From positions 1-36,803 of the forward strand of contig BQJQ01000005.1 of NCBI GenBank assembly GCA_021604785.1: a stretch of DNA of 36,803 nucleotides. Direction: 5' to 3'. Every line of letters begins with the position of its first letter. The stretch's first letter is position 1. The notes below the pieces were generated by a model. The model was given only the letters and a program-made list of their open reading frames with translations, ran no database searches and had not been told where the DNA came from. The position numbers were made by a program, and so were the translations under genes. Positions 6,481 through 26,246 of the stretch are shown here, piece by piece. The DNA is from Phycisphaeraceae bacterium (GTDB lineage Bacteria > Planctomycetota > Phycisphaerae > Phycisphaerales > UBA1924).

Positions 6481-7277
6481 GAAGCCGGCGTGGGCGGACG
6501 GTGCTTCGTAGGCTGCTTGGTGCCGCATTCGGGGCAGGTGTCGAGGTCGATGACGGAGTAGCCGCAGCGTGGGGCGATGCAGATGCCAGGCTTGATGCGC
6601 CCCCGTGCTTCGATCGCGAGAGCCAGTGCGTTGACAGCGTGCGCAAGCAGCAGGATCACCAATGCAGGTGGTGTGAACGCGAGAGTGTTTACGATGACGC
6701 CCGGGAAGATCGGCCGCAGAGGAATCGCACCCCTGAAATCGCGCGGGATGCCCCAACTCACAACCCCACTGGGGTGGTGGACGCAAGTTGCCGAGTACAG
6801 CGGCCATCCACACAGAATGACGGTGCTCGGGGGACCGGCGCCGGAGCGCACGATGCGGTCCGCGCCCGGGCGTGAGCGGAGGGCTGGCATGAGCCAGTGA
6901 AAACGGGGCGTGTCGCGACGAGGCCGCAAGCCGGAGCCATCGGTCGGGAAGACCAGCAAGTGCTCGATGCCGTTGAGGTGATCGGGTTCGGAGTAGACCC
7001 ACTTTCGCCCGGGCCCGGGGGGCCAGGCCCAGGTGCCCGGACCCGAGGAGATCGAGATCTGCCCGCCGGGCACGCGGCGACCGGTGAGGAACTGGCCGAA
7101 TTCAGGGTCCAGCGCGATCAGCACCGTTGTGGCCGCCTGGAGCACGAACGCGAACAGAAGCGTGGCAAGGCACCAGCGTCCGAGGGAGCGCCGGTTTCGG
7201 GCATTGGGCGATGGGGTGTCCACGGGGCTCAAGATCGGGAAGAGGGTGGCCGAGCCTATTGTTGTCCATGCGTCCAT
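6477..7277 (-). CDS. Membrane protein with C-terminal zinc ribbon
   Basis: Unrecognised protein of about 266 residues. It has a hydrophobic segment near the N-terminus (WCLATLLFAFVLQAATTVL), a second one later (VILLLAHAVNALALAI) and a C-terminal four-cysteine ribbon, CIAPRCGYSVIDLDTCPECG. This ribbon type (CxxCGY...CPECG) recurs in planctomycete membrane proteins; another copy is at 34888-35871. The start is uncertain: ATG 7277 is used because the longer frame would run into the tmRNA gene at 7311, but no good ribosome site marks it and a GTG near 7223 is possible. The gene is divergent from ssrA. Confidence 0.6.
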   Translation of the reverse strand: MDAWTTIGSATLFPILSPVDTPSPNARNRRSLGRWCLATLLFAFVLQAATTVLIALDPEFGQFLTGRRVPGGQISISSGPGTWAWPPGPGRKWVYSEPDHLNGIEHLLVFPTDGSGLRPRRDTPRFHWLMPALRSRPGADRIVRSGAGPPSTVILCGWPLYSATCVHHPSGVVSWGIPRDFRGAIPLRPIFPGVIVNTLAFTPPALVILLLAHAVNALALAIEARGRIKPGICIAPRCGYSVIDLDTCPECGTKQPTKHRPPTPAS

Positions 7278-8839
7278 GGCCGACGGTCGGTTGCGGGCGG
7301 ATGACAGGTTGGGGCCGATACGGCATTCGACCGGACGGGAGCAAGCTCGGTGTGGCGCGTCGAGGGGCGTGTAGGCCTCGTAAAAAAGCACGCAACTTTA
7401 TAACTGCCGAACCGCAGTTCGCACTCGCGGCTTAATAAAGCCGTGGATCCCTCGCCCGACGCCTGATGAGGCGGGGGATCATGATCATCGGGCTGGTCCG
7501 TGTGTGGTGCACCCTGGCACACGGGCGAGGAGGTTTCAGGGGGCTGGATGCGAAGCCAGGGTGTCGCTGCCCGGGCGAGCGTCGAGATTAAATCAGCGAC
7601 TACACGCGTAGAGGCGCCGTGCTGACCGTTCCGGGACGGGGGTTCGATTCCCCCCGGCTCCATTGATAGACACCGAACGACAGATTCGGACAGATCAGGA
7701 CTAAGTGCTCCGTCTGGCGACACTTGCACGCCAGACGGAGCGGGCCCCGATGCGTCTTCATCCGACACTAAACGACCCGTTTCGACCACGCCCGTTGCGC
7801 GCCACGTTGCGCGCTCTGACCCGAGCAGTGTCGGGAAGTCACGCATCGCCGTGGCGTGCTCGTCTTGCTCGGTGTGGAGATAGCCCTGCGTTGTCTTGAT
7901 GTCGGCGTGGTCCGCCATGCGTTGGGTGAGCCGCGTGTCCTTGGTCTGCCGAGCGATGATCGTGGTGAACGTGTGGCGGAGGCTGTGGAAGCAGGCGATG
8001 CCTTCCGCGGTCCGCTTCGTGATGCCGGCTGCGGCGAGATCCTTGTCGATAGTGTGATGGCTCGGCACGCCTCGAAACACGCTCGGCGTCTTGGCCCTTG
8101 ACCGGACTTCCGCCAGGGCATCGGCCAGCTCAACAGTGAGGAATTGCGTGCGCCCCTTGCGGTTTTTGGTCGTCTTGGGCCGCAGCGTGACATGAGGCTC
8201 CGGCCCATCCTCATGGATGTCGGTCCACAGCAACTGCTTCAACTCTTTGAAGCGTGCGCCAGTGGTCACGGCGGTGAGATAGAGCAGCCCGCGCGAGCCG
8301 GCTGACTCGATCAATCTGGATACCTCAATGACCGTCAAGGCGCGGCGATGCTCGCGTTCATCGGTCCGTATGCGCGGACGCCGGATCCGGCCCCGGACCG
8401 GGTTTGAGTCCAGCCGGTCTTCATGAACGAGCCAATCGAGGAACACGTTCCATGCGGTCAGGTACTCGGTCCGGGTCTTTGGGCCGCAGGCGAGCGAGTT
8501 CAGCCAAGACTCGAACGCCCGCTTGTTGATCTCACGCAGCGTGCGGAACCGTCCGGCTTCAACCAGATGCCTGAGTTGGGCCCGCTTCTTGCGGATGTGT
8601 TCGGCACCCCGCCCGTCGTGGTCGCGGAGATAGTCCAGGTGGTCCTCTATCAGGTCCTTGAGCCGGTCGCTGAGCGTGCGCTTGCCGCGGCGGTAGGCAT
8701 CAACTCCGACCTCCCGCATGCGCATTGCAGCCTGCATTGCAAGGCCTTGATCGGTGTGCCCGGTCGAGACGTACCGACCATCGATGCGGGCGTAGTAGCT
8801 CTTGCGTCCCGGTCGCTTTGTCACTGTCGGAGCAGGCAT
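7256..8839 (-). CDS. E1 tyrosine integrase, reading through att1
   Basis: Site-specific tyrosine recombinase. Residues 55-150 form the core-binding SAM-like domain. The catalytic domain shows Arg196 (TTGARFKELK), a basic TTKNRKGR strand, HxxR at His285/Arg288 (FHSLRHTF), His311 and nucleophile Tyr320 (TTQGYLHTE). No stop follows: the frame enters the att1 core at residue 393 (MEPGGIEPP) and then runs antisense through ssrA to 7256, giving 527 residues whose last 130 are probably not native. In an excised circle the same frame would join the tail ORF at 14512-14910 instead (524 residues). The start (ATG 8839) overlaps the Xis-like gene's stop (TGATG), so RHH, Xis and Int are translationally coupled. 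Confidence 0.9.
   Translation of the reverse strand: MPAPTVTKRPGRKSYYARIDGRYVSTGHTDQGLAMQAAMRMREVGVDAYRRGKRTLSDRLKDLIEDHLDYLRDHDGRGAEHIRKKRAQLRHLVEAGRFRTLREINKRAFESWLNSLACGPKTRTEYLTAWNVFLDWLVHEDRLDSNPVRGRIRRPRIRTDEREHRRALTVIEVSRLIESAGSRGLLYLTAVTTGARFKELKQLLWTDIHEDGPEPHVTLRPKTTKNRKGRTQFLTVELADALAEVRSRAKTPSVFRGVPSHHTIDKDLAAAGITKRTAEGIACFHSLRHTFTTIIARQTKDTRLTQRMADHADIKTTQGYLHTEQDEHATAMRDFPTLLGSERATWRATGVVETGRLVSDEDASGPAPSGVQVSPDGALSPDLSESVVRCLSMEPGGIEPPSRNGQHGASTRVVADLISTLARAATPWLRIQPPETSSPVCQGAPHTDQPDDHDPPPHQASGEGSTALLSRECELRFGSYKVACFFTRPTRPSTRHTELAPVRSNAVSAPTCHPPATDRRPWTHGQQ
7311..7662 (+). ncRNA. ssrA: tmRNA (trans-translation rescue RNA)
   Basis: tmRNA, with SmpB, frees stalled ribosomes and tags the nascent peptide. 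The 5' end GGGGCCGATACGGCATTCGA is a classic tmRNA opening. Its GGGGCCG (7311-7317) pairs with CGGCTCC (7655-7661), with G.U at the third pair, the alanine identity element. The tag frame resumes at GCA 7388-7390 and reads ARNFITAEPQFALAA, followed by two TAA stops (7433-7438); the ALAA end is the normal protease signal. The T-arm is GACGGGGGTTCGATTCCCCC. CCA is not encoded: the discriminator A at 7662 is followed by TT. The last 23 bases lie inside the att1 core, so the 3' end is now supplied by the integrated element. Confidence 0.96.
7640..7664 (+). repeat. att1: core at the ssrA / E1 junction
   Basis: A 25-bp core running from the T-stem (GGGTTCGATTCCCCC) through the acceptor (CGGCTCC) to CATT. 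The same bases occur at 14887-14911 and 25995-26019 in the same direction. With att3 the identity extends 4 bases further left (ACGG, 29 bases in all). Here it completes the intact tmRNA gene, as expected for an element that rebuilds the 3' end of its target. Confidence 0.93.
7707..7741. terminator. Strong hairpin 42 bases right of att1
   Basis: GCTCCGTCTGGCG and CGCCAGACGGAGC form a perfect 13-bp stem around a 9-base loop. It lies just downstream of the tmRNA gene and inside the 3' part of the integrase frame. Nearly the same hairpin follows att3, and an unrelated one follows att2 at a similar distance. There is no T-run, so its role as ssrA terminator, or as a structure in the att region, is inferred. 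Confidence 0.55.
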
Positions 8840-9045
8840 CAGAGGTACCCCCGCTGCTGGGCGAGCTTGTAGTACGCTTCAACGGCTCGCTCGCTGAAAA
8901 AGACCTGACGTCCCTTGCGAAGGACTTGCGAGAGAACGGGCTCGGTCTTCATGCGGCGTTCAAGTGTCTTGAGGCACATGCCCAAGCGTTGGGCGGCGTC
9001 CGTCTTCGTCAGGTAGCCGGGAGGGCAGTAGCTCGCGATGGGCAT
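8839..9045 (-). CDS. E1 Xis-like small helix-turn-helix protein
   Basis: A 68-residue protein with a MerR/excisionase-type helix-turn-helix (YLTKTDAAQRLGMCLKTLERRMK) and a C-terminal part with VFFSERAVEAYYKLAQQR. Such proteins bend att DNA and bias a tyrosine integrase toward excision, or regulate the operon. Start ATG 9045 overlaps the stop of the RHH gene (TGATG), and its own stop overlaps the integrase start in the same way. The longer frame from 9105 is rejected because it lies inside the RHH gene. E2 has a counterpart in the same gene order at 24613-24810. Confidence 0.8.
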   Translation of the reverse strand: MPIASYCPPGYLTKTDAAQRLGMCLKTLERRMKTEPVLSQVLRKGRQVFFSERAVEAYYKLAQQRGYL

Positions 9046-9359
9046 CACGACCCTCCCTTCTTCTTTGTGGCCTTGGCCTTGCGCCGGCGTCGCCACTCCT
9101 CCCAATCCGAAGCGGGCACTCTCATCACGAGTTCAACGGGCCCGTCTTCGTCGTGCCAATGGACGGCTGACAGGGCCGCAAGAACCTCGGTGGGCATGCA
9201 GTTCATGCGGAAGAACTCGACCTTGGGGTCTTGGTCCAGACTCCCTCGGCAGATCCGCTCAATCAACTCCGAGCTGCTAATTTCATCCGCCTCAGCCTGC
9301 TGATCGAGTTGAGCAACGAGTCGTTCGTCGAGCGAGATAGAGGTTTTGAGTGTTCCCAT
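9045..9359 (-). CDS. E1 ribbon-helix-helix regulator
   Basis: A 104-residue protein with an N-terminal CopG/Arc-type ribbon-helix-helix (LKTSISLDERLVAQLDQQAE...SSELIERICRGSL). It is followed by an acidic/aromatic middle (VLAALSAVHWHDEDGPVELV) and a Lys/Arg-rich tail (WRRRRKAKATKKKGGS) that probably contacts DNA. It is first in the RHH-Xis-Int operon and a natural autoregulator. ATG 9359 is chosen over 9365 because a likely -10 box (TTATAT, 9369-9364) covers the upstream ATG; the mRNA may then be leaderless. Confidence 0.75.
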   Translation of the reverse strand: MGTLKTSISLDERLVAQLDQQAEADEISSSELIERICRGSLDQDPKVEFFRMNCMPTEVLAALSAVHWHDEDGPVELVMRVPASDWEEWRRRRKAKATKKKGGS

Positions 9360-9363
9360 ACCC

Positions 9364-9393
9364 ATATAACACCACCTTTAAGGTATGCGTCAA
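9364..9393 (-). promoter_or_regulatory. Candidate promoter/operator of E1 RHH-Xis-Int
   Basis: On the minus strand, TTGACG (9393-9388), an 18-base spacer and TTATAT (9369-9364) end just before ATG 9359. The spacer holds the palindrome ACCTTTAAGGT (9374-9384), well placed as an operator for the RHH protein. The sequence match is good; its use is inferred. Confidence 0.45.
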
Positions 9394-9768
9394 CCAACTA
9401 CCAATACTTGTCTTAATCACCCTTGGCATACGTGCTGGCCCTGTACGAGCAGAACTTGTCGCCTGAGTGCGGTTAACCCCGGACATGCAGAGCGCAGTGG
9501 CTCTGCTGGGCTTCGAACTCATCCACGACACTGTCCGCAATCGGCACAACAAACGGGACAGGTCACGGAGGCGCAGAATCTAGCATCTAAGCCGCGAACG
9601 CCTCCCCGGCCTCGCTCCTGTACGCCATGGCGTAGACAAAGCGACAGACAAACACTGGGGGAAGATCACTTGCAAAAGAAAGACACCGCATCCCGAGCAG
9701 GGATGCGGCGCCAAAGAACCCATCTGCGCAGGGGGGAGTCCCGCGCTTCAGATCATGCGAAGCGTGAC
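9394..9768. other. Non-coding stretch between the int operon and cargo
   Basis: No convincing gene. Frames here are short or are shadows of the neighbouring exported-protein gene. It holds the terminator at 9675-9708 and, at its left edge, the promoter of the integrase operon. No repeats or RNA genes were recognised. Confidence 0.6.
9675..9708 (-). terminator. Intrinsic terminator of the E1 CTERM gene
   Basis: Reading leftward, the stem CCGCATCCC / GGGATGCGG (9686-9694 with 9700-9708, loop of 5) is followed by a T-rich run (GTGTCTTTCTTTTGC). It lies 60 bases beyond the stop of the 9769-10545 gene and would insulate the integrase operon. Confidence 0.75.
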
Positions 9769-10545
9769 TCAGCGCCGGCGACGCATCGCGACCAGCCCGC
9801 CGAGCCCGATGAGCGCGGCCGACGACGGGGTAGGGGTGACCTCGACGCGGAGAGTCGCTTTGACACCGTCCACCGTGCCGGTCGCCCAGTCACCGTTCAC
9901 GAAGCTGGTGAAGTCAAACCCGTTGGAGACGATGACGGAGTCGGTCGAGTAGGTAACCGAGACTCCCAATGTGCCGTCACCGTTGACGACCCAGTGCATG
10001 TTCGCGCCGCCGTCATCGACGTCGCTGAACGGGGCACCGTACCCGTCAATGTCCAAGAACACGCCGAAGTCGTCGATGATGCTCACCTGGGTGGCGGCGC
10101 CGAAGTCATCGAAGGCGATCCCGCCGCCGCCGATGCCGAACTCGAAGGTGATCTCGTTGATGGTGGCGCCAGAGGCGAGGGTGTCGCCGGTATCGATGAT
10201 GGGCGAATCGTAGAAATTGACGCCGAAGGGGAAGCCGGTTGAGCGGCTGCCGACGCGAACGCCGACGTTGTAGAGATTTCCACCGTTGGGGCCGGTGCCC
10301 GCGGCGCCCTGGGGCGTGACGACGTAGTCGCCGTAGACGGTGTTGTTGCCCAACGAGTTACCCAGGTCGGTGCCGAAGTCATCGGGATCGATGCTGAGGT
10401 TCGACGTGCCCGATCCGAGGATCATGGTCTCGCCCGAACCGCCGTTGCCCATGATGACGGACGTGCTGACGGCGGTGCCGGTCGGGCCGGCGAATGCGGT
10501 GCCCGCGGCGAGGAGCGTCGCGGCGATTGCGGTCTTGTAGCTCAT
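9769..10545 (-). CDS. E1 cargo: exported CTERM-like protein
   Basis: A 258-residue protein with a clear signal peptide (YKTAIAATLLAAGTAFA) and a C-terminal sorting tail: TPTPSS, the hydrophobic AALIGLGGLVA, then MRRRR. The body is rich in Gly, Asp and Thr with beta-type spacing (TINEITFEFGIGGGGIAF, NMHWVVNGDGTLGVSV) and shows no catalytic motif. It may be an anchored surface protein. AAGGGAA lies 8 bases before ATG 10545. The tail matches that of the chromosomal gene at 30751-31416 (LGLGGLMATRRRR), so the element carries cargo fitted to this lineage's sorting system. Confidence 0.8.
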   Translation of the reverse strand: MSYKTAIAATLLAAGTAFAGPTGTAVSTSVIMGNGGSGETMILGSGTSNLSIDPDDFGTDLGNSLGNNTVYGDYVVTPQGAAGTGPNGGNLYNVGVRVGSRSTGFPFGVNFYDSPIIDTGDTLASGATINEITFEFGIGGGGIAFDDFGAATQVSIIDDFGVFLDIDGYGAPFSDVDDGGANMHWVVNGDGTLGVSVTYSTDSVIVSNGFDFTSFVNGDWATGTVDGVKATLRVEVTPTPSSAALIGLGGLVAMRRRR

Positions 10546-10695
10546 CTGTAATTCCCTTTCTCTCTCAAAGACTTAGAAACTCTCTCTATTACTGGACCAC
10601 ACAAAGTGTCTCACACATGACGCTCGTTACGTGATCTGAACGTGCGACAACGAGCCGCCTGATCGATGCAAGCGCAGTTCCGGTGACTCGGGGGG

Positions 10696-11967
10696 TCATT
10701 CGGAGCCCGGGCACCCCGCCAGGAAGCAGGTCACGTAGCAGTCGATGTCATCGACGTTGAGCGTGCCTGAGCCGTCGCAGTCTGCGTCGCCCAGGTCGCC
10801 GCCGAGGAACGCGGAAACGAAACAATCGATGTCATCGACATTGAGGACGCCGTCGGCGTTGCAATCGCAGAAGGCGCACTGAGGCGTGATCTCAACCACC
10901 CAGCTGAATACTTCGTCCCCGAGGGTGAGCCCCCAGCCGGTGAACCATGTCGCGTCCGAGGAAACGCCCGAGATGAACGTGAGGGTGAGCGACGGGTCGA
11001 TGACGGCGCCGAGGGAGGCAAAGTACTCTGAGGCGGTCATCATGCCGATGCCATCCTGCCAGACGAAGCCCGTGCCGAAGGCGAATGCCGGTCCACCTTC
11101 CCAGGTCGAACCAACGATGAGCGACCCGTCGGCCGTCATGTCGTACCCGATGATCTGTTCGCTCGGCGTCTCGATGTTGCCGAGATCCTCGGAGACGTTG
11201 GTAACCGTGTTGTACCGCCAAAGCGAGCCGTTGATGTCCCCGACATCGGACCCGCTAACCCAAGTGCCGTCTTCAGAGACAGCCCAAGCATCACCGGCGA
11301 TTGTGGCATCGGTCTGGAAGATGAGCTCTTGGATACCGTCCACCCAGACGCAACCCTGGCGCCCCGGGCCGTCTTGCCACCCGGTGACGACCGAGCCGTC
11401 GAGGTCAGCACGGTTGGCGCGGGCAGAGTTTCCGACCACGTTGGTGCCGAAGTCTGTGATACCCGAGCCGACGGTCCACCTGATCGCGTGGTAGTCCGCG
11501 GTTCCCTCGGTGGTCCACCCGCCGCCGACGACGTTAAGCCCGTCGCCCGAGATGCCATACCCGGCGCTGACAGCCTGCCCGAGCTGACGCCCGATGACCG
11601 GGATCATCCCGAACCCGGTCCATATGTCGGCGGTGACGTCATAGCGTGCCCACTCGGCGTAGTTCTGGGTAGTGTTGAAGAAGGTACCCCCAACGAACAG
11701 ACCGTCGCGCGAAATGGTGGCCCCACCGCCGATGCCGTTGCCAGCCCCGACGCCCCCGATGGTGATCAGCCCGCCATCAACGCTCCACAGGGAATACGGC
11801 GCATTGCCCGTGCGCTCAACGGTCGCGATCCCGTTGTCGCTGATGTCGTTGGCGAGAAGGAATTCGGTCGTCGGGTCACCGATGATGTAGAAGTTCACAT
11901 CAGCGTGCGCGGCGTGGGCTCCGAGTCCCGCCGCGACAATCATGTTCAGCACGTGGTTCGTCTTCAT
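10696..11967 (-). CDS. E1 cargo: exported repeat protein with GC-type dockerin
   Basis: A 423-residue protein. It has a signal peptide (VLNMIVAAGLGAHAAHA), then about six repeats of the form DGxxVxG...W (DGLFVGGTF, DGLNVVGGGW, DGSVVTGWQ, DGTWVSGSD, DGSLIVGSTW), which suggest a HAF-like beta-propeller. It ends in a dockerin-like Ca2+-binding pair, CDCNADGVLNVDDIDCF and CDGSGTLNVDDIDCY, with paired cysteines. Start ATG 11967 is chosen because AGGGAG lies 7 bases before it and the signal peptide begins there; the frame extends 17 residues further upstream. The same dockerin type ends the chromosomal esterase at 27519-28823. Its partner is unknown. It is divergent from the gene at 12177. Confidence 0.82.
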   Translation of the reverse strand: MKTNHVLNMIVAAGLGAHAAHADVNFYIIGDPTTEFLLANDISDNGIATVERTGNAPYSLWSVDGGLITIGGVGAGNGIGGGATISRDGLFVGGTFFNTTQNYAEWARYDVTADIWTGFGMIPVIGRQLGQAVSAGYGISGDGLNVVGGGWTTEGTADYHAIRWTVGSGITDFGTNVVGNSARANRADLDGSVVTGWQDGPGRQGCVWVDGIQELIFQTDATIAGDAWAVSEDGTWVSGSDVGDINGSLWRYNTVTNVSEDLGNIETPSEQIIGYDMTADGSLIVGSTWEGGPAFAFGTGFVWQDGIGMMTASEYFASLGAVIDPSLTLTFISGVSSDATWFTGWGLTLGDEVFSWVVEITPQCAFCDCNADGVLNVDDIDCFVSAFLGGDLGDADCDGSGTLNVDDIDCYVTCFLAGCPGSE

Positions 11968-12071
11968 GAGAACGCTCCCTTTGTGTGAGCCGTCGGTGTG
12001 GTCAACCCGGTCACGCACTTGAGACCAAGCGAAGTGTCAGATGCCTCGGGGTGATGCTACCGGACGTAGAA

Positions 12072-12113
12072 TTGTCGCACAAGTTTCCCTGGGGAATATT
12101 CTGCGAATAATTC
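12072..12113. promoter_or_regulatory. AT-rich divergent control region in E1
   Basis: The 209-base gap between the dockerin gene and the 12177 gene holds an AT-rich patch with GAATATTC (a perfect palindrome, 12094-12101) and GAATAATTC (12105-12113), 11 bases apart. TTGTCG (12072-12077) with a 17-base spacer to AATATT gives a weak plus-strand promoter. A role as operator for either gene is inferred. Confidence 0.3.
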
Positions 12114-12176
12114 TCGTCAACCCCAAATCTCGGTATCATCTATCAGACCGAGCGATGCGACAGGAAATGTTGAGCA

Positions 12177-13385: not shown

Positions 13386-13450
13386 CAGGTAGCGATGGAC
13401 GCAGTTGAGCTGTACCCGCCGCAACGATCGCGGCCTATCGGGGGCGTGCT

Positions 13451-17709: not shown

Positions 17710-20700
17710 CTATTCACCATTCTGCCTCAGAAGCTTCTCGCCAGGCGAGTTGATTTTATTATATAAATTAGGATTATCAACCCCACCGGCTTCTCGAATC
17801 GCCCGGGCTTCATCCATCAACGCCTCTTGATTGTTTGGTGCCGGAGTGAATTGTTGATCAATTACAGGATCATCATACGCTTCTGATTTTTCCCTCGCCG
17901 ATCGTCTCATTCTTTTTTTGGGCCCTTTGCCGATATATTTCTTTCCGCTCGCAAAATCTATAATATACGAACCAAATTTTGAATTCTTAACTTTGCCAAT
18001 AGCTGTCGAGAACGTCTTGCCGACACCAGGGGGTCCTGGAACAAATGCCCCAGTAGCGGTGTCCCGACATTCAGTGAGCGTAGACACAGTATCGTCCATC
18101 GCCCCCTGTTCGATTTTTTCGGCATCAGATACCCATTTGTGGCCATCATTGACGGCGTCGTTCGCGCCATCTCGATCACCCCGGTCCCTGGCTTTCTTTC
18201 CGTTCCGCCCTTGGTTGACCTGAATAGCGGTGGTGGATCTGTCATGCTCCTTGTTTGCACGCCCCGAAAGGATGTCTACGAAGTATGAAGCCCCTTCCTT
18301 GTAGTGCTGCCAAATCGATCGCATTCCGTACGGATCAAGCAGGATCAATGGAGCACTGAGAACGTATGCGACTAAGTTTGGACTATCGATATAGCCTAGT
18401 GGATCCCGGTGCACCCACCGGCCAAGTCGAGGCCACAGAAACCGATGTCGCACCTGATAGAGTTCCGTCTCCGGCTCCCACAGTCGCCCCGTGTACATGT
18501 GCCGCACGGCGTAAAGCGATGACGCTCGCTCCAGCCCCGCCGCATCCATGACCACCGGCTCGCCGTAGTCGCCGTAGTCGTACCGCTCGATCACCGCGCC
18601 AGAAGAGTCCGTCAGCGCATACACGCTGAACTGGTCGTCCTGGTGGTAGTAGTAGTCCTCCGGCGTCTGCAGCGACTCGTCCGTCGTCGTGATGATCTCG
18701 TCGATGTAATTGCCGTAGACGTGCGTGCGCACAAGATCATCGGCGTCCGTCGGCCCGTCGTACTCCTCGATCAGCTGCCACGCACCCAGCCCGGCGTACA
18801 CGAAGTACGTCGTCTCGGCGTTCGTGCCCGTGACCTGCTTGCTCACACGCCGGTTGAAGGCGTCGTAGCGGTAGAGAGCCGCGGAGACCTCGGTCGCACC
18901 GTTGTTGCTCACCGCCGTGACCAGCTGGTCCCGGTAGTCGTAGCTGAGCTGGGTGTTGGCGCAGGTCGCGTTGCTGCCGGAAAAATCGGCAACGAAATCG
19001 CCCATGTCGTCGATGTTGATGGTGCCGTTTCCGTCGCGGTCCGCGGCGGGGTCGCCCGCCGTGAACAGGGCGACGTACGCGTCGATGTCGTCGACGTTGT
19101 TCTGGAAGTCACCGTTGATGTCCGCCGGGCACGGCTCGTGGTAGAGGACCATGTTGCCGTTGATGTCGTAGTGGTGCTCCCAGTCTGGCGACGTGGTGTA
19201 CTGGTTCACCGAGTCGTCGGGCGTGTCCATCGTGTAGGCGCCGTCGTACGCGCCGGCCTGGTCATCGCCGGTGACGGCGAGCCGGTTGCCGAGCTCGTCG
19301 AGGCCGTAGAGGGTGCCGCCGGCGGGCGCGGACGAGGGCGTCCACGGGTCCGGCGCTATCGGGAGCGTGGCAAGCTCGCGGCTCTGGACGAGCCGGTCCG
19401 CCGAGTCGTACGCGAACAAACGATTGCGCGGCGTCGCGACCGTGCCGCCGGTATCCAGATGAGCGACCTTGTTGCCCGCGCGATCCCACCAGAAGCGGCG
19501 TTGATCGACGGTGACACTGCCGGGCCCGGTGTGGGTGACCTGGGCCATGCGTCCGACGCCGAGATCGTTTGCGTTGTTGAACGCCGAGCCCTCGTACCCG
19601 TTGTAGGCGTAGTCGGTGACAACGCCGTTGCCCGAGGTACGTTGCTCGACACGGCCGGGACCGACGTAGGCGTATGACGCGATGTCGGTCAGCCCTACGT
19701 CGGTGCCGATCGAGCTGATTCGGTTCAGATCGTCGAAAGCGCGGTGGATCACGCGCCCGCCCGGGTAGGTGCACACCGTCGGGTTGCCGGCCTCGTCGTA
19801 GGTGGTAGCACAAAGGCGGTCCGACGCCGCCGGGAACAGCCCCACCGCGTCGGCGTTCAGGACCTCCGAGAGCATGTAGCCACGTGAGTCGTACGACCTC
19901 ACGATCTTCGCGCTGTCGTTCGTGGCGAGCTTGACCCGCCCGAGACCATCGTACTGGAAGGTCTCAGCGGTCGTGGTCTGGGCCGGGTTGTCGATCGCCG
20001 AGGCGAAGTCGAGCACCCGCCCGGTCAGCCGGTTGTTGAGGTCGTAGGTGAGTGTGGAGAGCACACCGCGGGCGTCGATCGCGGCGTCCATGTTGCCGGC
20101 GTGGTCGTAGCCAAAAGTGAAGATCCCCCCGTCGGGCATCACGCGCTCGATGGAGCGTCCCAGCCCGTCATACGAGAACCTCGTGACGTTGCCGTTGCTG
20201 TCCTCCAATTCGATCGGCCGCGACGAATCGTCGTACCTGGTCTTGGTCACGATCGGGCTGAGGGCGGTCCCGAACCCGAGCCCGGTGTCCGTCATGATCT
20301 CCTCGACCCGCACGCGCCGGCTGAGCCCGTCGTAATGCAAGGTCGTCAGGTTGGAGCGAGGGTCGAGGATCTCGACCAGGTTCCCCCGCGAGTCCCACCC
20401 GAAGTCCCAGGTGTTCTGTGGGCCATCACTCGACGCGCCCCCCGCGATCGTGTGCGCCCCTTCGACCCGCGCAATGATCCGGTCCATCGCGTCGTGCACG
20501 AACTCGGTGTGGAAGACTTGATCCGAGGCCCCCACCGCCGGCTTCTCGACCGACACGATCCGCGTGAGACTGTCCCCGTCGCCGTACTGATACCGCACCT
20601 CGTTGCCGGCGGCATCAATAACGGTGTCAAGGCGCCCGGCGCCGTCGTAATACCGATTCGAGGTCGCGGATGAGCTCCCCGAAGGGTCGTAGATCGGGTA

Positions 20701-23700
20701 GGTCACGCTGCGGACGGAGTCGTCGTCGTTGTAGCCGTAGGCGGTTTCCGCGTACGGCACCGGCGGCGCACTGCCGCCCGAATAGATCACACCCGCGGGG
20801 AGCGGGTCGAAGATGTACTCGCGTTGGGCGGTCACCCGATCCTGCTCGTCGTACTGCATCGATGAGTAGGCGAGCAGCTCGTTGTCGTTGCTTGTCGGGT
20901 CGTCCTGGCTCGGCGGCCCGATGACGGCAACCGAGAGCAGGTTGTCCGCGTCGTCGTACCCGAGCAGGGCTTCGTTGAGCATCGGGTCGGTGATTTCTTC
21001 GATCCGGTCGAACGGGTCCCACGACACCACGGTCTCACGCGGCTGGGCACCGCTCGGATCGACGATAATCTTGGCGACCTGGCCCTTGCCGTCGTAATTG
21101 AACTGCGTGACCAATTCAGTCCCGCCGGTGCCTTCCGTCTGCGTATACACGCGGTCCCGGGCGTCGTAGGCAAGGTCAATCCGGTTCTCGCCCTGGCACC
21201 CGTCCACCGCCTCGGGGTAGACCACCGCCGACAGGTTGTCGTTGTGGTCGTACTCCAGGTCCGTGATCGACCATGCGTTGAACGATCGCTCGTCGCACGG
21301 CGTGGAGTACCCGCCCGCGCCTTCGACGTAGTTGTCCGTCTCGAACGCCATCGAGGGCCCGGCCCTCAGCGACACCGTGCCGCTGAAGATGCCCGCCTCG
21401 ACCGCGACCCGTTCGAGCAGGTTGTACGCGTCGTACTCCCGGATCGTGGTGAGCTCGGGGTTCGCGCCCACGGACGCCTGGGTGGCGTCGAGGTTCGTGA
21501 TATCCTCGCGGACGAGGTTCCCGTTCGCGTCGTAGAAGTAGTCCGCCGCCGCGTAGAGCACCGCAGGCCCCGGATCAGGGTCGGCGTCGTACCGCTCGTA
21601 ACGCACGATCTCGTTGTACTGGTTGTAGATCCAGACCGACACGTCCCCGTCGGGCTCGGTGATCTTGGTCAGGTTCCCGACCGCGTCGTGCTCGTACTCG
21701 TAGGTCAGGTTCAGGCCGCCGTCATCGATGATGACCTTGTCGACATACCCATTGTCGTATTCGTACTTATCCGTTCGGGTGTACGCGGTCGGCGTGCCGC
21801 TCACCAGCACGGTCGTCTCGGGATGGGTATGGGTCAACATCTGCCCATACGTGTTGTATGTGAATTCTTCGACCGCGGTCGGATTGCCCGAGCTATCGAA
21901 ATCGTGGCGGATCCACCGCAGCTTGCCGGTGTTGTCGTCGTACTCGAACTCCGTCTTGACCCCGAGCGCGTTGAAGTGCTCGGTCGGGTAGTCTGCGGCG
22001 CAGCTGCACCCCGCGAAGTCGAAGTCGTATACCCAGGCCTCGGCGATCGAGTCCGTCCCCGCGGCGTTCCACTTCTCGCGTTGCGTGATCGCGCCGTTCT
22101 TAAGCGGGTCGAGATCCACATCATGGATGTCCCGATACCGCTCCAGAATCGTGAATTCATCGTTCGGGTGGATGATCTTGCTGAGCAGCCAATCCTCGTT
22201 CCACTCGAACTCCGTGTCGTAGAACGGTGGGTCGCCCGCGCGGATCGGCCCGGCGGGCATGTTCGTCGTGCCGTATGAGACCGCGTTCGCGTTCGGCGCG
22301 AGGCCGGTGTACTCACGCCGACGGACCAGGCGTCCGTCCGGCTGACAGATGCACGAGGTCCGTGTGGCGTTGTCCTCGCACGAGTCGCCGTTGGGGATGT
22401 TGTACTCGACCCGGGCGACCTGGCCCGCACGGTTGTTGACCCACACCAGGTAGTCCGTTTCGGCGTGCAAGTCGGTGGCACCTGAAGTCGTCGCGTCCTC
22501 GTAGTAGTAGTTGTAGTGGCGACCCTCGTGCTCCTGCTCGGCCACGAACACGCGGGACTTGAATGGTGTGCTCGGGTCGAGCATGTACAGGTTGTCAACG
22601 ATCTTCGTGCCGTTCGGGTCGATGATGCTCTCAAGGAACCTGCCGACGCACTCCTCACCCTCGCTGTCGTACTGAACGTCCTCCGCAACGGTCTGGTACG
22701 TGTACGTCCACTCGCGCCCGCTCGGAAATCGTGCGGCGTGATCAGCGGGCAAGTCGGGGAAAGCGCCTGCCGCGGCCGTGCCCGGCAGCATGACCGAGAC
22801 CAGGTCGTACCGCTGACCCTTGACGATGTTCGGGGCCTCGCCGGACTCCAGGTCGTTCGGCACGATGCCTGTGTCGGCGTCCGAGCAGAGCTTGCAGGTG
22901 TCTTCCGCCTGGTACCAGTAGTCAATGGTGCGGCCGCCCGTCACGTCCTCGATGGACGTGATGAGGTACGCGCTATCGACGTCATCGTACGAGAACTTGT
23001 ACACGTTCCCGAGCGTGTCCACGATCTCGTCGATACGGATGTCGTCGGGTTCGAGGGGGTCGGCGTCCTTGTAGCTGATCGTGATCTCGTTCCCGCTCCG
23101 ATCCCGGATGCTGCTCAGCCGGTAGTACCCCTCGTACGGGCCCGACAGATCGGCAAACTCGTCGAACTCGAACGGCTCGAGCTCATAGATCAAGCCGTCG
23201 GCGAGGCGGTACTCGATCAGCCCTGTATTGGGGATGCTGAACACACCCGTCAGACGCCCGTTCGAATCAAAGGCGTTGTGGTCGGTCGTCTGGGCTTCGT
23301 ACCAATCGACCCGGTTCTCGTGGTAGATCTGGATGCCCTCGTTGGGATCCAAAGCGGACTGCGCATCCCAGACCACCCCGATCATGAAGTACGGGTGCGC
23401 CCAGCCGGTGCCCATCGGGCTCAGGTCGCTGAACAGCGGCGGGATTCTGGGATTCACCTCGTTGGCGATCGCATCGGCAACGCCCGAAGGACGCCGGAGC
23501 TGCGGGAACCGGAACTCCTGCCACGTGTTCGTGGTCGAGCTGTACATCCGTTTGAACTCGAAGTCGATCCCGCGCCCGGGCACGAACAAGTCGGTCTGCT
23601 CGTACAGATAGCTGCCCGTCGCGAGGTCGATGGGGTCCGAGAGGTCGTTGCACCCGCTGTCCTCGCCTTCCTGGGGCGCGTCGGGGTTGCCCGACGACTC

Positions 23701-23886
23701 GCAGTCCTCGCACGGGGGGACCACGCAGCTCGTCGCCACGACCGGGCCCCCACAGTCGGCAACCTGGCCCCCGGCGGTGCACGCGAGGGTGAAGAGCACG
23801 CCTATCGCGGCGGCGGGCACAAACCTTCCGCGAACACCATCAAACGCACGTGCCGCGAACCCAACCCGATTCAACGTTGCCGTCAT
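17710..23886 (-). CDS. RHS-repeat polymorphic toxin with embedded dockerin
   Basis: A 2058-residue exported RHS protein. Start ATG 23886 has AAGGGAG 5 bases before it (the frame begins at 23913). Order: signal peptide (FVPAAAIGVLFTLA), Cys-rich stretch, a DUF6531-like opening (DPIDLATGSYLYEQTDLF), and many YD repeats (YDGLGR, YDEAGNP, YDSRGYM). A dockerin-like pair lies inside the shell at about residues 1583-1644 (DINGDFQNNVDDIDAYV, DRDGNGTINIDDMGDFV). Then come the RHS core (RHRFLWPRLGRWVHRDPLGY) and LLDPYGM at about 1850. The final 203 residues are the variable tip, AT-rich in base composition, with a GIY-YIG-like pattern: GSYIIDF, KKYIGKG, Arg-rich helix, NQEALMDEARAI. A DNase is the best guess. 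Confidence 0.88.
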   Translation of the reverse strand: MTATLNRVGFAARAFDGVRGRFVPAAAIGVLFTLACTAGGQVADCGGPVVATSCVVPPCEDCESSGNPDAPQEGEDSGCNDLSDPIDLATGSYLYEQTDLFVPGRGIDFEFKRMYSSTTNTWQEFRFPQLRRPSGVADAIANEVNPRIPPLFSDLSPMGTGWAHPYFMIGVVWDAQSALDPNEGIQIYHENRVDWYEAQTTDHNAFDSNGRLTGVFSIPNTGLIEYRLADGLIYELEPFEFDEFADLSGPYEGYYRLSSIRDRSGNEITISYKDADPLEPDDIRIDEIVDTLGNVYKFSYDDVDSAYLITSIEDVTGGRTIDYWYQAEDTCKLCSDADTGIVPNDLESGEAPNIVKGQRYDLVSVMLPGTAAAGAFPDLPADHAARFPSGREWTYTYQTVAEDVQYDSEGEECVGRFLESIIDPNGTKIVDNLYMLDPSTPFKSRVFVAEQEHEGRHYNYYYEDATTSGATDLHAETDYLVWVNNRAGQVARVEYNIPNGDSCEDNATRTSCICQPDGRLVRRREYTGLAPNANAVSYGTTNMPAGPIRAGDPPFYDTEFEWNEDWLLSKIIHPNDEFTILERYRDIHDVDLDPLKNGAITQREKWNAAGTDSIAEAWVYDFDFAGCSCAADYPTEHFNALGVKTEFEYDDNTGKLRWIRHDFDSSGNPTAVEEFTYNTYGQMLTHTHPETTVLVSGTPTAYTRTDKYEYDNGYVDKVIIDDGGLNLTYEYEHDAVGNLTKITEPDGDVSVWIYNQYNEIVRYERYDADPDPGPAVLYAAADYFYDANGNLVREDITNLDATQASVGANPELTTIREYDAYNLLERVAVEAGIFSGTVSLRAGPSMAFETDNYVEGAGGYSTPCDERSFNAWSITDLEYDHNDNLSAVVYPEAVDGCQGENRIDLAYDARDRVYTQTEGTGGTELVTQFNYDGKGQVAKIIVDPSGAQPRETVVSWDPFDRIEEITDPMLNEALLGYDDADNLLSVAVIGPPSQDDPTSNDNELLAYSSMQYDEQDRVTAQREYIFDPLPAGVIYSGGSAPPVPYAETAYGYNDDDSVRSVTYPIYDPSGSSSATSNRYYDGAGRLDTVIDAAGNEVRYQYGDGDSLTRIVSVEKPAVGASDQVFHTEFVHDAMDRIIARVEGAHTIAGGASSDGPQNTWDFGWDSRGNLVEILDPRSNLTTLHYDGLSRRVRVEEIMTDTGLGFGTALSPIVTKTRYDDSSRPIELEDSNGNVTRFSYDGLGRSIERVMPDGGIFTFGYDHAGNMDAAIDARGVLSTLTYDLNNRLTGRVLDFASAIDNPAQTTTAETFQYDGLGRVKLATNDSAKIVRSYDSRGYMLSEVLNADAVGLFPAASDRLCATTYDEAGNPTVCTYPGGRVIHRAFDDLNRISSIGTDVGLTDIASYAYVGPGRVEQRTSGNGVVTDYAYNGYEGSAFNNANDLGVGRMAQVTHTGPGSVTVDQRRFWWDRAGNKVAHLDTGGTVATPRNRLFAYDSADRLVQSRELATLPIAPDPWTPSSAPAGGTLYGLDELGNRLAVTGDDQAGAYDGAYTMDTPDDSVNQYTTSPDWEHHYDINGNMVLYHEPCPADINGDFQNNVDDIDAYVALFTAGDPAADRDGNGTINIDDMGDFVADFSGSNATCANTQLSYDYRDQLVTAVSNNGATEVSAALYRYDAFNRRVSKQVTGTNAETTYFVYAGLGAWQLIEEYDGPTDADDLVRTHVYGNYIDEIITTTDESLQTPEDYYYHQDDQFSVYALTDSSGAVIERYDYGDYGEPVVMDAAGLERASSLYAVRHMYTGRLWEPETELYQVRHRFLWPRLGRWVHRDPLGYIDSPNLVAYVLSAPLILLDPYGMRSIWQHYKEGASYFVDILSGRANKEHDRSTTAIQVNQGRNGKKARDRGDRDGANDAVNDGHKWVSDAEKIEQGAMDDTVSTLTECRDTATGAFVPGPPGVGKTFSTAIGKVKNSKFGSYIIDFASGKKYIGKGPKKRMRRSAREKSEAYDDPVIDQQFTPAPNNQEALMDEARAIREAGGVDNPNLYNKINSPGEKLLRQNGE

Positions 23887-24144
23887 CGCTGCTCCCTTCA
23901 CCAACCCCGACATCGACGCGCCGGGATCCCTGAGAGCAGACTACGAGGTGATCGGGGTTGGGGATCCTCTCATGTGCGGACTACACCAAATCTGCGCAAT
24001 CAGGTAGCGGTCATTATTTTAGAATGAATCAACATCAAGTCATAAAGACACGCGGATCAGCATTCCGTGTTTTCCCGGCTACAGACCACTTTGCGCAACT
24101 CATGACAATGCACCGCCAGCCTTAGCAGCCAGCGCCTCCGATCG

Positions 24145-24173
24145 CTTGACAGAACCATCCGAACACCCATAAC
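24145..24173 (+). promoter_or_regulatory. Candidate promoter upstream of E2 RHH
   Basis: TTGACA (24145-24150), a 17-base spacer and ATAACA (24168-24173). The -35 is perfect and the -10 is fair. It would give a leader of about 90 bases containing the palindrome at 24208-24219. Confidence 0.4.
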
Positions 24174-24207
24174 AGGGGGGCGGTTGCATCCGAGCGGCAC
24201 TGCATTA

Positions 24208-24262
24208 AATTACGTAATTCATATGGATCATCCTTGACAAGCCTATCTACACGCGCCATGAT
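24208..24262 (+). promoter_or_regulatory. Candidate operator and proximal promoter of E2 RHH
   Basis: The 12-bp palindrome AATTACGTAATT (24208-24219) precedes TTGACA (24234-24239), a 17-base spacer and CATGAT (24257-24262). Transcription from here would start at about the ATG at 24269, giving a leaderless message, as suggested for the E1 RHH gene. The palindrome is a candidate RHH binding site. Confidence 0.4.
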
Positions 24263-24268
24263 CTCCTG

Positions 24269-24616
24269 ATGCCCGACCGCAACGTCACCATTGTCCTCCC
24301 CGACGACATGATCGAAGGGCTCGATCTCCTGGCTGGGGAGATAGGCGTGAGCCGGTCGGCTCTGATCCGGCGCGCTGTGCTCCGCTTCCTCCCGAAGTTG
24401 AACTATTCGATCGAGCATTCCAAGCCCGGAGATTGGGCGGATGAGGTCGTGTACCTCCTCATGGGCGCGCCCGTGAAACGCACAGGCGATGACTCTGACC
24501 AGGAATTCGTCGAGGCCCTGCAAGCGGTGCGTGCCCGATTCAAAGCAGACAAGGCCAAGAAGCGGACCAGAAAGAAGCAAGCGGGGCGTCCTCGGAAAAC
24601 GGAGGGCAAACGGTGA
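24269..24616 (+). CDS. E2 ribbon-helix-helix regulator
   Basis: A 115-residue protein with an N-terminal ribbon-helix-helix (RNVTIVLPDDMIEGLDLLAGEIGVSRSALIRRAVLRFL). A middle segment (WADEVVYLLMGAPVKR) and a strongly basic tail (KKRTRKKQAGRPRKTEGKR, AT-hook-like GRP) follow. First gene of the RHH-Xis-Int operon and likely autorepressor. There is no Shine-Dalgarno sequence before ATG 24269; a promoter just upstream suggests a leaderless start. The next gene overlaps it by GTGA. Confidence 0.78.
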   Translation: MPDRNVTIVLPDDMIEGLDLLAGEIGVSRSALIRRAVLRFLPKLNYSIEHSKPGDWADEVVYLLMGAPVKRTGDDSDQEFVEALQAVRARFKADKAKKRTRKKQAGRPRKTEGKR

Positions 24617-24810
24617 TACCTCCAGTAGAGACGAAACCGCACTACACGCTCGTCGAGTTTGCTCGGGCTCTTCAAGTTTCGTATTCAACCGCGAAGCGGA
24701 TGGTTTGCACGGGCGACATCCGGCGCGTACGGCTTCGTTCCGGCGGCCGTGAAGTTATCCCGCACGCTGAACTTGAACGAATCATGAGGAAGCTGAGGGT
24801 GGCTCCATGA
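24613..24810 (+). CDS. E2 Xis-like small helix-turn-helix protein
   Basis: A 65-residue protein with an excisionase/MerR-type fold: HYTLVEFARALQVSYSTAKRMV (helix-turn-helix), a wing RVRLRSGGREVIPHAELERIM, and a short tail. Start GTG 24613 overlaps the RHH stop (GTGA), and its stop overlaps the integrase start (ATGA). It should act as a recombination directionality factor or operon regulator, as its E1 counterpart does. Confidence 0.8.
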   Translation: MIPPVETKPHYTLVEFARALQVSYSTAKRMVCTGDIRRVRLRSGGREVIPHAELERIMRKLRVAP

Positions 24811-26246
24811 TCGTTTTCCGGCGCAAGCGGAACGGGCCTGATGGCAAGGTCATTGTCGCTGACACATACTCGGCTCGTCATCGCTTCGCTGGCGACAAAA
24901 ACCCGACGACCATCCCGCTCCGCGTGACCCGCAAGGACGTAGCTGAACAGCGCGGGCGAGAATGGGTAGCGCGAGAGGAGCGACAACGGGCCGGGCTCAT
25001 CGTGGATCCGGTAGAACTCCATGCTGCAGAAACCCCGATCGTTGAACTCATTGAAGAATTTCGACAGTCGCTCAAGGCGCGTGGTTTGGAAGCGGATTAT
25101 GTACGCAAACCGGTGCAACGGTGCCGCGACCTGTGCGATATCTTGAGCTGGCGCCGCCTTGCTGACGCAAACCCGATGGAGTTGCGGCGGTATTTAGAGG
25201 GATCAAACTGGTCCCCCACTACCCGAAACCATTACCTGGACGCTGTGAAGCAGCTTTTCCGGTGGCTTCACCGTGATGGCCGGATCCCACACAGCCCTAT
25301 CGCGGACGTCCCAAGGTTCAAGGTGGCGTTCACGGAAACCTATGACCGCGCAGCGTTCACAGAAGACGAGCTTGTCAGACTGATTGACCCGAAGACCACT
25401 GACAAGCGACGGCTGTACCGAGCGGATGTATACGCGCTCATGGTGTTCTCAGGCCTCCGGTGGACCGAGGCTGGCCGCCTCCAGGTGCGAGATATCCGAC
25501 GCGACGACGATGGATATTCCATCATGATCCCACGCGGCAAAGACAAAGCTAACCGCGGCGACGTGATTGAACTACAAGCAGAACTAGAACCGGTCATCGA
25601 GAGGCTGGTTGCCGAGCGCAATCCACGCGACAAACTCATGCATGCCGGTCTTCCGACGCGGCACACATTCAGGAGAGACTGCGAACGCGCGGGGATTGAA
25701 CACGAACGTGCCGATGGCTCTCGGATCGTCCGGTACTCCTCACGCGACACGTACACCAGCCTTCTCCGCGCGCTGGCTCGTTCCACCGATCAACTCCGGG
25801 CCCTCACCCGGCACCGCACGCGCGGGATGGAGGACCGGTACACCGACAGGAAGACCCAAGGCCTCCGGACCCTCGTGAACCGCATGCCGGTCGTAGTGCC
25901 GGGTCGTGCTGAACGGGAACGGCAAGATACAGGACCGTGTGTCAAAGACAGTGTCAACACCCCCACTCACGCAACGGAAACCGGGATTCCACGGGGGTTC
26001 GATTCCCCCCGGCTCCATTTCCAGACACCGAACGACAAGTTCGGTCTCATCGGGACTCTGTGCTCCGTCTGGCGCCACTTGCACGCCGGACGGAGCGGGC
26101 CCGGACGACCGTTGATCAGACTCGAAATGACCTGCTGCGACGATGCCCGCTGCGGGCGGCACCGACGCGGCGTGGCGTCGCACGGACCTGTTGGCCCGCG
26201 ATCTGACAGACGCTGCCGAGTGGATGCTCGACGGCGGGCCGCCTGA
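24807..26246 (+). CDS. E2 tyrosine integrase, reading through att3
   Basis: A tyrosine recombinase of a different subgroup from the E1 enzyme. The core-binding domain spans about 75-165 (SPTTRNHYLDAVKQLFRWLHRDGRI). Catalytic domain: Arg218 (FSGLRWTEAG), a Lys-rich loop PRGKDKANRG, then YSSR (Tyr310/Arg313) where most relatives have HxLR, RHRTRGMEDRYT with His336 and nucleophile Tyr345. The frame crosses the att3 core at residue 397 (GFDSPRLH) and then reads the remnant on the right, ending at 26246 after 479 residues; that tail is probably foreign. In the circle it would instead join the tail at 14887-15240 (513 residues). Confidence 0.88.
   Translation: MIVFRRKRNGPDGKVIVADTYSARHRFAGDKNPTTIPLRVTRKDVAEQRGREWVAREERQRAGLIVDPVELHAAETPIVELIEEFRQSLKARGLEADYVRKPVQRCRDLCDILSWRRLADANPMELRRYLEGSNWSPTTRNHYLDAVKQLFRWLHRDGRIPHSPIADVPRFKVAFTETYDRAAFTEDELVRLIDPKTTDKRRLYRADVYALMVFSGLRWTEAGRLQVRDIRRDDDGYSIMIPRGKDKANRGDVIELQAELEPVIERLVAERNPRDKLMHAGLPTRHTFRRDCERAGIEHERADGSRIVRYSSRDTYTSLLRALARSTDQLRALTRHRTRGMEDRYTDRKTQGLRTLVNRMPVVVPGRAERERQDTGPCVKDSVNTPTHATETGIPRGFDSPRLHFQTPNDKFGLIGTLCSVWRHLHAGRSGPGRPLIRLEMTCCDDARCGRHRRGVASHGPVGPRSDRRCRVDARRRAA
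25939..25957 (+). repeat. Paired GTGTCAA repeats, left arm of E2 attP
   Basis: GTGTCAA at 25939-25945 and 25951-25957, 12 bases apart, ending 37 bases before the att3 core. Same word and spacing as at 15053-15071. Likely arm-type sites for integrase or Xis. Confidence 0.5.
25995..26019 (+). repeat. att3: core at the right end of E2
   Basis: Third copy of the tmRNA core. Both ACGG to its left and about 100 bases to its right resemble att1 and its right flank, so the DNA to the right is not simple chromosome but a relic of an E1-like element end. Confidence 0.92.
26000..26160 (-). pseudogene. Relic of a third, E1-type integrase C-terminus
   Basis: Reading leftward toward att3, the frame encodes GPAPSGVQVAPDGAQSPD, then VVRCLEMEPGGIEPP. 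The E1 integrase ends GPAPSGVQVSPDGALSPD, then VVRCLSMEPGGIEPP. DNA similarity to the region right of att1 continues for about 130 bases and then fades; no catalytic domain is present. This is best read as the last trace of an older element in the E1 orientation, mostly deleted. Confidence 0.7.
26062..26096. terminator. Hairpin 42 bases right of att3
   Basis: GCTCCGTCTGGCG and CGCCGGACGGAGC, 13 pairs with one G.U, 9-base loop. It is almost identical to the hairpin right of att1. Confidence 0.5.

Follow-up and report, generated by a model that had tools for sequence, protein, structure and literature searches.

Integrase genes that run across their own attachment site in Planctomycetota, and a conserved WPxLP tail that excision would restore to them

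The stretch of DNA that was analysed here, 36,803 nucleotides of a Phycisphaeraceae bacterium (contig BQJQ01000005.1; hereafter the window), carries two elements of the integrative-plasmid kind, which lie in tandem at ssrA, the gene for the transfer-messenger RNA (tmRNA). We propose, as the probable reading of the data, that the attachment site of the element (attP) lies inside its tyrosine integrase gene (int), between the catalytic domain and a conserved hairpin, that integration cuts the gene there and that excision rebuilds it as int::tail, which would make the integrase a state-dependent enzyme. The anatomy of the elements, the agreement in phase between integrase and tail, purifying selection on the tail and the fusion of both in one circular contig were all observed. 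The features concerned are, in the coordinates of the window:

7311 to 7665, plus strand: ssrA (tmRNA), the integration target, whose 3' end is att1 (ARAGORN; Rfam RF00023, 154.8 bits, E 2.8e-61)
7639 to 7665, plus strand: att1 core, 27 bp, direct repeat family D3
14886 to 14912, plus strand: att2 core, the junction common to elements 1 and 2, 27/27 identical to att1
25994 to 26020, plus strand: att3 core, matching at 26/27 bp
7256 to 8839, minus strand: Int1 open reading frame (ORF) in the integrated state, 527 amino acids (aa), PF00589 above the Pfam cut-off, crossing att1 as MEPGGIEP
24807 to 26246, plus strand: Int2 ORF in the integrated state, 479 aa, crossing att3 as GFDSPRLH; PF00589 at E 4.7e-5, just below the Pfam cut-off
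14512 to 14910, minus strand: tail 1 ORF with the motif LWPSLAP and an ATG within the core; excision would join it to Int1
14884 to 15240, plus strand: tail 2 ORF with the motif RWPQLSP; excision would join it to Int2

The three cores are copies of the 3' end of ssrA and each adjacent pair of them bounds one element; the layout is that of a genomic island, with the whole tmRNA gene (7311-7665) at one end, the repeats att2 and att3, and the integrase inside. Element 1 (7639-14912) has Int1, an Xis-like protein and a ribbon-helix-helix (RHH) protein on the minus strand by att1 and Rep1 with tail 1 by att2, and element 2 (14886-26020) has tail 2 and Rep2 by att2 and the RHH, Xis-like and Int2 proteins on the plus strand by att3. 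The initiator domain PF02486 is present on both (Rep1 and Rep2, above the Pfam cut-off).

As an earlier, sequence-only reading of this DNA had claimed, int1 has no stop before att1 and int2 has none before att3, and scripted joining to att2 gave open frames of 524 (att1) and 513 (att3) residues; in the circular form, the core would lie inside an uninterrupted int ORF, which is open across att1/att2 as well as across att3/att2 in these joins. Past att2, the phase of the tail was the longest of the three (132 vs 91 and 81 for tail 1; 117 vs 90 and 36 for tail 2). The match to PF00589 ends upstream of the core, at residue 325/527 in Int1 and 347/479 in Int2 (in the latter below the cut-off), and the catalytic domain is kept whole, with the integrated form of Int1 ending antisense through the tmRNA gene and that of Int2 in the flank right of att3. 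The two tails, which had been said to share a motif, matched one short profile at 53.9 and 51.4 bits, both being among its seven building sequences. The integrases themselves, which had been called unrelated-looking, turned out to be 27% identical over 279 aa (E 1e-15) and are, as judged from this alignment, distant homologues; Int2 is also 68% identical over 402 aa to the integrase of a related genome, G017.

Relatives at ssrA provided a first comparison. The full tmRNA locus was available in 29 of them, and the stretch after ssrA was compared with the window in 16 of the 29; window-like elements were found in two of these 16, G017 (locus L093) and G018 (L094). G017 has the gene order of element 2, which runs core, tail, Rep, RHH, Xis, Int, core, and its integrase and tail agree in phase in the same way. 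G018 is laid out like element 1; its integrase, which is broken by an upstream frame change, crosses the core in another phase (NGAGGNR), and its tail is in that same phase. This joint shift of phase in G018 gave the first strong indication that integrase and tail belong to one gene. On the integrase side, 22 integrases were examined, the two of the window and 20 from other loci. For the 17 whose ORF end and adjoining tRNA or tmRNA gene were taken from one comparison, the int ORF entered that gene by 24-226 bp in 16, and the integrase of L104 ended 265 bp short. At 15/17 loci, the int frame stayed open through its final 150 bp plus 25 bp of tRNA sequence, compared with 4/34 for the other two frames, thus the frame through the core is maintained and is not a mere GC effect. 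Both cores were located for eight of the 22 integrases, and the frame of the circle yielded a W-P-x-L tail in seven of the eight. A third int1-like integrase gene in the genome of the window (G000:C231, L095, 472-1809) has its ORF end inside a tRNA-Val gene.

The tail was then surveyed with a profile built from seven tails, including both of the window, which matched at least 84 of 392 Planctomycetota genomes. Besides the two of the window, the 60 best matches were retrieved and analysed as 60 distinct tails. A core resembling a T-loop lay within the tail's own ORF and no more than 400 bp upstream in 37/60 (38 when one core above the ORF is counted), whereas only 77 of 1807 random stretches (4.3%) had one; in a larger set of tails it was found in 83/144. 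For 15 of the 60 tails, the same strand carried an integrase gene further downstream, and the phase agreed in 14 of the 15, the exception being L144. A genome_contigs scan with a closer tail alignment gave 130 confirmed matches; among 80 of these 130, planctomycete names were borne by 77 and other names by L218, L232 and L243. The viral_contigs scan added two matches, and of the resulting 82 tails (80 of the 130 and the two viral ones), 17 had a downstream integrase, two being duplicates and four not scorable. Ten of the 11 scorable tails agreed in phase, including the circular contig L203, and L273 disagreed. In integrated elements, the agreement was 30/32 in total and 23/25 outside the set used for the profile (P 1.5e-9 with a chance of 1/3 each, a value that overstates independence given that some elements are related, e.g., L142/L214 and L146/L259, and that the independent events are fewer). 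L193 (the same tail as the second in L168), L247 and L278 (contigs of L144 and L192) were dropped before this count; L205 (an integrase fragment) and L222, L246 and L265 (in which the integrase runs off the locus) were left unscored, the phase of L179, whose cores differ, was scored by eye, and that of L182 came from a separate inspection. The elements had inserted at tmRNA and at tRNA genes of ten types (tRNA-Ile, Val, Ser, Leu, Ala, Tyr, Asn, Lys, Cys and Asp). In L168, L181, L199 and L241, the integrase abuts a tail of another frame on its downstream side, and these loci are perhaps tandem islands.

The coding nature of the tail was assessed on 29 independent pairs of related tail domains, from which L151, L217, L251, L267 and L268 were also omitted (the 144-tail set omits all of these but L151). 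In the tail frame, there were 253 non-synonymous and 247 synonymous changes, i.e., a ratio (N/S) of 1.02, compared with 2.69 and 6.35 in the shifted forward frames and 1.34, 2.59 and 5.15 in the antisense frames; an earlier version with 27 pairs had given 243 and 232 changes, respectively. This pattern of substitutions indicates that the tail frame is under purifying selection. Moreover, from the core to the end of the domain, the tail frame was open in 30 of 31 integrated elements and the other frames in 9/62 (L273 left out). Searches for the tail as a known domain gave nothing significant, the best E over 19 tails being 0.01 for Pfam, 0.063 for PHROGs and 0.048 for NCBIfam, and against the PDB sequences the best match (E 2.2) was likewise not significant. 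In an AlphaFold2 model of a 45-residue stretch of tail 2, a helix, a W-P turn and a second helix were formed (mean pLDDT 80.8, pTM 0.52); the WPxLP tail is thus a predicted helical hairpin. In the viral contig L202 (2709-5133), a tail-like domain is preceded, at a distance of 779 bp, by a serine recombinase gene; the idea of the tail as part of a serine recombinase was rejected, as a same-strand recombinase within 3 kb upstream was present for only 1/144 tails, that of L202.

The fusion itself was found on L203 (IMGVR_UViG_3300035133_000029), a contig of 9200 bp with an exact 99-bp terminal repeat. Such a repeat usually marks an assembly as circular; a chromosomal tandem repeat could also yield it. 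Across the join, a single ORF of 539 aa contains the integrase, the core and the tail RPDPDLVAIVEAWGSLPAPIRAGILAMVEAAK, and the peptide ASHLAPG flanks the core on both sides. By eye, the core resembles the 5' half of tRNA-His, and no complete tRNA was detected on the contig by ARAGORN. Among the other products of L203 are a capsid protein, a small terminase subunit, an AAA ATPase and an HTH_17 protein, and it is possibly a capsid-carrying phage satellite of planctomycetes. Integrase and tail are also in one ORF in L166 and L266, on other contigs, so homologues of the tail that are fused to integrases do exist, the absence of which the sequence-only reading had named as a finding that would speak against it. 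In the further viral_contigs scans, profile P0001 gave L203 only and alignment A5 gave nothing; close relatives in viral_contigs numbered none for Int2 and one, weak, for Int1, and the integrase of L203 had no match in the phage collection. The phase agreement, L203 and the selection on the tail frame together bear out the claim that integration swaps the C-terminus of the integrase and that excision would fuse int in frame to the tail.

The direct repeats around the cores point the same way. In 19 of the 20 elements used for this check (and for that of the tail stops, of which there were 21, with L168 counted twice), a direct repeat of 10-24 bp was common to the 3' part of int and the stretch past the far core, with p by mononucleotide shuffles of no more than 0.06 in 19/20 and no more than 0.015 in 17. 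The repeats start 46-180 bp before the core (85-180 in 18/19) and 35-148 bp after it. The arm-type sites of lambda-type integrases look like such core-flanking repeats. It appears from these sequences that attP, with its core and candidate arm repeats, lies within int. The candidate sites in the window are:

7794 to 7803, plus strand: candidate arm site in int1 (element 1), 138 bp before the core; a 10-bp repeat with 14819-14828, p 0.015
14819 to 14828, plus strand: candidate arm site in tail 1 (element 1), 57 bp past the core; pair of 7794-7803
25850 to 25860, plus strand: element 2, candidate arm repeat of 11 bp found by computation, ahead of the core, p 0.005
14953 to 14963, plus strand: element 2, other copy of the computed candidate arm repeat, past the core; pair of 25850-25860
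25939 to 25957, plus strand: two copies of GTGTCAA ahead of the att3 core, noted by eye as alternative arm sites
15053 to 15071, plus strand: two copies of GTGTCAA past the att2 core, within tail 2, likewise noted by eye as alternative arm sites

The repeat that was computed for G017, CATGAGTGTCAAC, holds GTGTCAA, and the GTGTCAA pairs of element 2 fit it better than the computed repeat of element 2 does.

Several observations weigh against the proposal that int and tail are one gene divided by attP. L144 and L273 are out of phase and both of their integrase ORFs stop before the core; in L273, the core lies above the tail ORF, and the arm repeat of L144 is not significant (p 0.79). The integrase of L104 also has its own stop before the core and has no tail. 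Integrases of this kind had been named beforehand as contrary evidence, and they do occur, in these three loci, as a minority only. No integrase was present downstream in the retrieved stretch for 45/60 tails, and by a simple pattern 61/144 had no T-loop-like core. N/S is low (1.34) in antisense frame -1 of the tail as well, and 25/29 tails contain some ATG, GTG or TTG after the core. The fusion ORFs of L166 and L266 are without an intact N-terminal integrase part, only one circle (L203) was found across five viral_contigs scans and none of either element of the window was seen, and the tail had no match in the plasmid or phage collections.

If the proposal holds, a single transcript would make the tailed integrase in the circle, and this protein would bind the core and the candidate arm sites inside its own gene and recombine with the end of a tRNA gene or of ssrA. 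Integration would cut the gene at the core, the catalytic part would take its C-terminus from whatever lies beyond, and the tail, stranded at the other end of the element, would lack a reliable start. Excision, together with Xis, would restore the full int::tail gene and, in the elements with a Rep_trans initiator, would place Rep behind it. The tailed form would integrate, and the tail-less form would either not re-integrate or support excision with Xis. We infer that the tailed protein, which would be made from the circle only, is the integration-competent form, that the tail-less form favours excision or is weakened, and that the enzyme would in this way report its own state. The broader proposal, a class of self-reporting integrases widespread among planctomycetes in which the hairpin tail, present only in the circle, is the directionality switch and in Rep_trans elements the same join switches on replication, seems to us about as plausible as its opposite.

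Of the other explanations, the one that survives best, as a possible but rather doubtful one, keeps the anatomy and removes the regulation: the tail would be needed for integration and its loss would have no regulatory role, attP would lie in int for compactness, and the integrated int would be unexpressed or would work without its tail. It is consistent with the C-terminus that is gained on integration being set by whatever lies past the core, and the cited part of a review discusses an att site inside the integrase gene as a compact module and as a possible aid to exchange between elements (PMC8371274). Against it, though not decisively, stands the fact that the layout recurs in different phases and at numerous tRNA sites, each with its tail on the far side, which needs explaining.

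The tail could also be mainly a replication switch, with excision joining the promoter of RHH-Xis-Int to Rep and the tail serving as a coupling leader, which was the emphasis of the sequence-only reading; we regard this as unlikely. The genes concerned in the window are:

13451 to 14515, minus strand: Rep1, a Rep_trans initiator (PF02486, E 1.4e-14), whose start overlaps the stop of tail 1 by 4 nucleotides (nt)
15237 to 15434, plus strand: ORF of 65 aa that overlaps the stop of tail 2 (ATGA) and the start of Rep2
15395 to 16726, plus strand: Rep2, a Rep_trans initiator (PF02486, E 6.6e-23)

The ATGA overlap that had been described between each tail and the next gene on the way to Rep is direct in element 1, and in element 2 the 65-aa ORF stands between. 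Rep_trans follows the tail, directly or past a small ORF or gap, in six elements, the two of the window, L093, L094, L099 and L171 (the Rep of L093 was identified by blastp to Rep1, 40%), and the stop of the tail overlaps the next start by 4 nt with Rep in element 1 and G017 and with the ORF before Rep in element 2 and L171. These features favour a switch; however, the same tail domain occurs in L109, L142, L144, L146, L180 and L184, in which a scan of the neighbourhood of the tail gave helicase-like, primase-like and P63C genes or genes that match nothing in Pfam. The notion of Int-tail-Rep as one design thus stands as a gene order in six elements and fails in the six other scanned elements, which carry other genes near the tail. 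Because of these six, the tail, as far as gene content indicates, goes with the integrase rather than with Rep, and a tail that is only a leader of Rep is ruled out as a general rule. Additionally, in the integrated state of G017, the tail and Rep sit directly downstream of ssrA in the same direction, and read-through from ssrA could express Rep there; the claim that integration cuts Rep from any promoter is therefore not secure. In the Rep_trans subset, excision could also connect Rep to the int operon, and this is not the common design.

A tail that is a separate small protein, translated in integrated elements from a start codon within or beyond the core with the phase agreement as a by-product, is highly improbable. 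Tail 1 has its in-frame ATG inside the core, tail 2 has a GTG at the edge of the core (14884), and there are the potential start codons after the core in 25/29 tails. On the other hand, between the core and the domain, no in-frame ATG was present in 22/29 tails, and 4/29 had no ATG, GTG or TTG after the core, among them tail 2 of the window, which lacks all three in frame from the core to the domain. A start with a motif like a Shine-Dalgarno sequence was found in three of the 29 and in none of the other 26 (these counts include L203 and exclude L144, L179, L182 and L273). Moreover, neither the phase agreement in 30/32 elements nor the contiguous fusion in L203 would be expected of a separate protein. 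The last alternative, that GC-rich DNA keeps frames open by chance and the motif match is a coincidence, can be practically dismissed: the window has many long spurious ORFs and the int1-like sequence right of att3 is open in the frame of int1 too, but the other frames are mostly closed, and the P value for phase, the purifying selection indicated by N/S and the frame-openness counts for int and tail rule it out.

The proposal of an attP-divided int::tail gene concerns elements whose remaining genes include, beside the integrases:

9045 to 9365, minus strand: RHH (CopG-type) protein of element 1, PF01402
8839 to 9105, minus strand: Xis-like HTH_17 protein of element 1, PF12728 at E 2.7e-4, below the Pfam cut-off
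24269 to 24616, plus strand: RHH protein of element 2, PF01402
24613 to 24810, plus strand: Xis-like HTH_17 protein of element 2, PF12728

The overlaps among the RHH, Xis and Int genes are as they had been reported, according to the ORF coordinates. Element 2 further encodes a 2067-aa RHS-repeat protein (PF05593, PF20148; 17710-23913, minus strand), which is followed in the position of an immunity gene by a 285-aa protein (16852-17709, minus strand) with a weak leucine-rich-repeat match. Just beyond the att2 core, a hairpin with a perfect 12-bp stem (14958-14986) lies in tail 2; it sits where read-through from ssrA would reach a single insertion of element 2 and is possibly a terminator without a T-run. 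The flank right of att3 (26021-26157) is 79-81% identical to 7666-7802, the stretch right of att1 that encodes the int1 end, and the similarity takes in a strong hairpin. The flank may derive from the ssrA terminator of the host, copied into the element, or be what remains of a third element. In a search of 150 genomes of the family with 26021-26340, matches were found in 16, all shorter than about 50 bp except the window's own copy at 7668-7802, and the genome G001 of the same genus had nothing similar past the 3' end of ssrA; the origin as host terminator was supported by neither.

The closest known systems are the Myxococcus phages Mx8 and Mx9, whose integrases go by the names IntP/IntX. 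The int coding sequence of Mx8 contains attP, and int acquires a new 3' end upon integration; the enzyme of the integrated form stays active with changed specificity, and Mx9 follows a similar principle, as described in the cited passages (PMC6070905). The sequence-only reading, which knew of no such arrangement, had thus overlooked a published precedent. Mx8 resembles the elements of the window in having attP within int, a replaced C-terminus and a retained catalytic domain, and in its GenBank record the excisionase gene uoi overlaps int; in contrast, the C-terminus of its Int has no WPxLP tail (1.3 bits with the tail profile). By analogy, Mx8 would be the best guide to what the loss of the tail does. 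In the passages cited, the layout of Mx8 and Mx9 is described for individual phages, whereas here it is recurrent, with one conserved tail domain across a phylum.

In the archaeal integrases of the SSV type, the target lies inside the integrase gene, which is split on integration into fragments described as inactive, and self-disrupting recombinases are said to occur only in archaea, according to the part of the source used here (PMC8371274). The split in those enzymes falls between the N-terminal and the catalytic part, while in the present elements the catalytic domain stays whole and the tail alone is lost. PF16795 (Phage_integr_3), which that source names for SSV-type integrases (PMC8371274), was not among the Pfam matches of Int1 and Int2 at E up to 1, which consisted of PF00589 and SAM-like N-terminal models only. 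Our data point to a bacterial counterpart of the self-disrupting recombinases, in many Planctomycetota genomes.

State can also be read in other ways. In integration-dependent immunity, attP lies in the repressor gene and integration changes the C-terminus of that protein, and hence its state. The term appears in the abstract of PMC4929511. In this kind of immunity the repressor is altered, whereas in the window elements it is the recombinase itself. In ICEKp1 and ICEclc, control of the int promoter depends on the integrated or circular state, as stated in the cited part of PMC13023037; these elements switch transcription, and those of the window change the protein sequence. What decides between integration and excision is commonly taken to be a separate directionality factor or a switch of promoters, whereas here the DNA join itself would change the enzyme. 

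The account of the Islander database, in its cited passages, covers islands in tRNA and tmRNA genes with a target restored by a fragment of the element, tandem islands and an integrase inside, and it permits overlap with integrase domains, as the Mx8 and SSV integrases extend across attP (PMC4383910). Those passages treat such integrases as named exceptions and mention no tail. In the titles and abstract openings of the top-ranked open-access papers, we found no account of a WPxLP tail or of attP-split integrases in Planctomycetota, nor of a conserved tail or such a layout as a rule in a bacterial phylum. The proposed gene would explain both the short WPxLP ORFs beside tRNA genes in planctomycete annotation and the planctomycete integrases that end in antisense tRNA sequence. 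An attP within int is known from Mx8, and it is the conserved tail and the phylum-wide recurrence that set these elements apart within the Mx8 kind.

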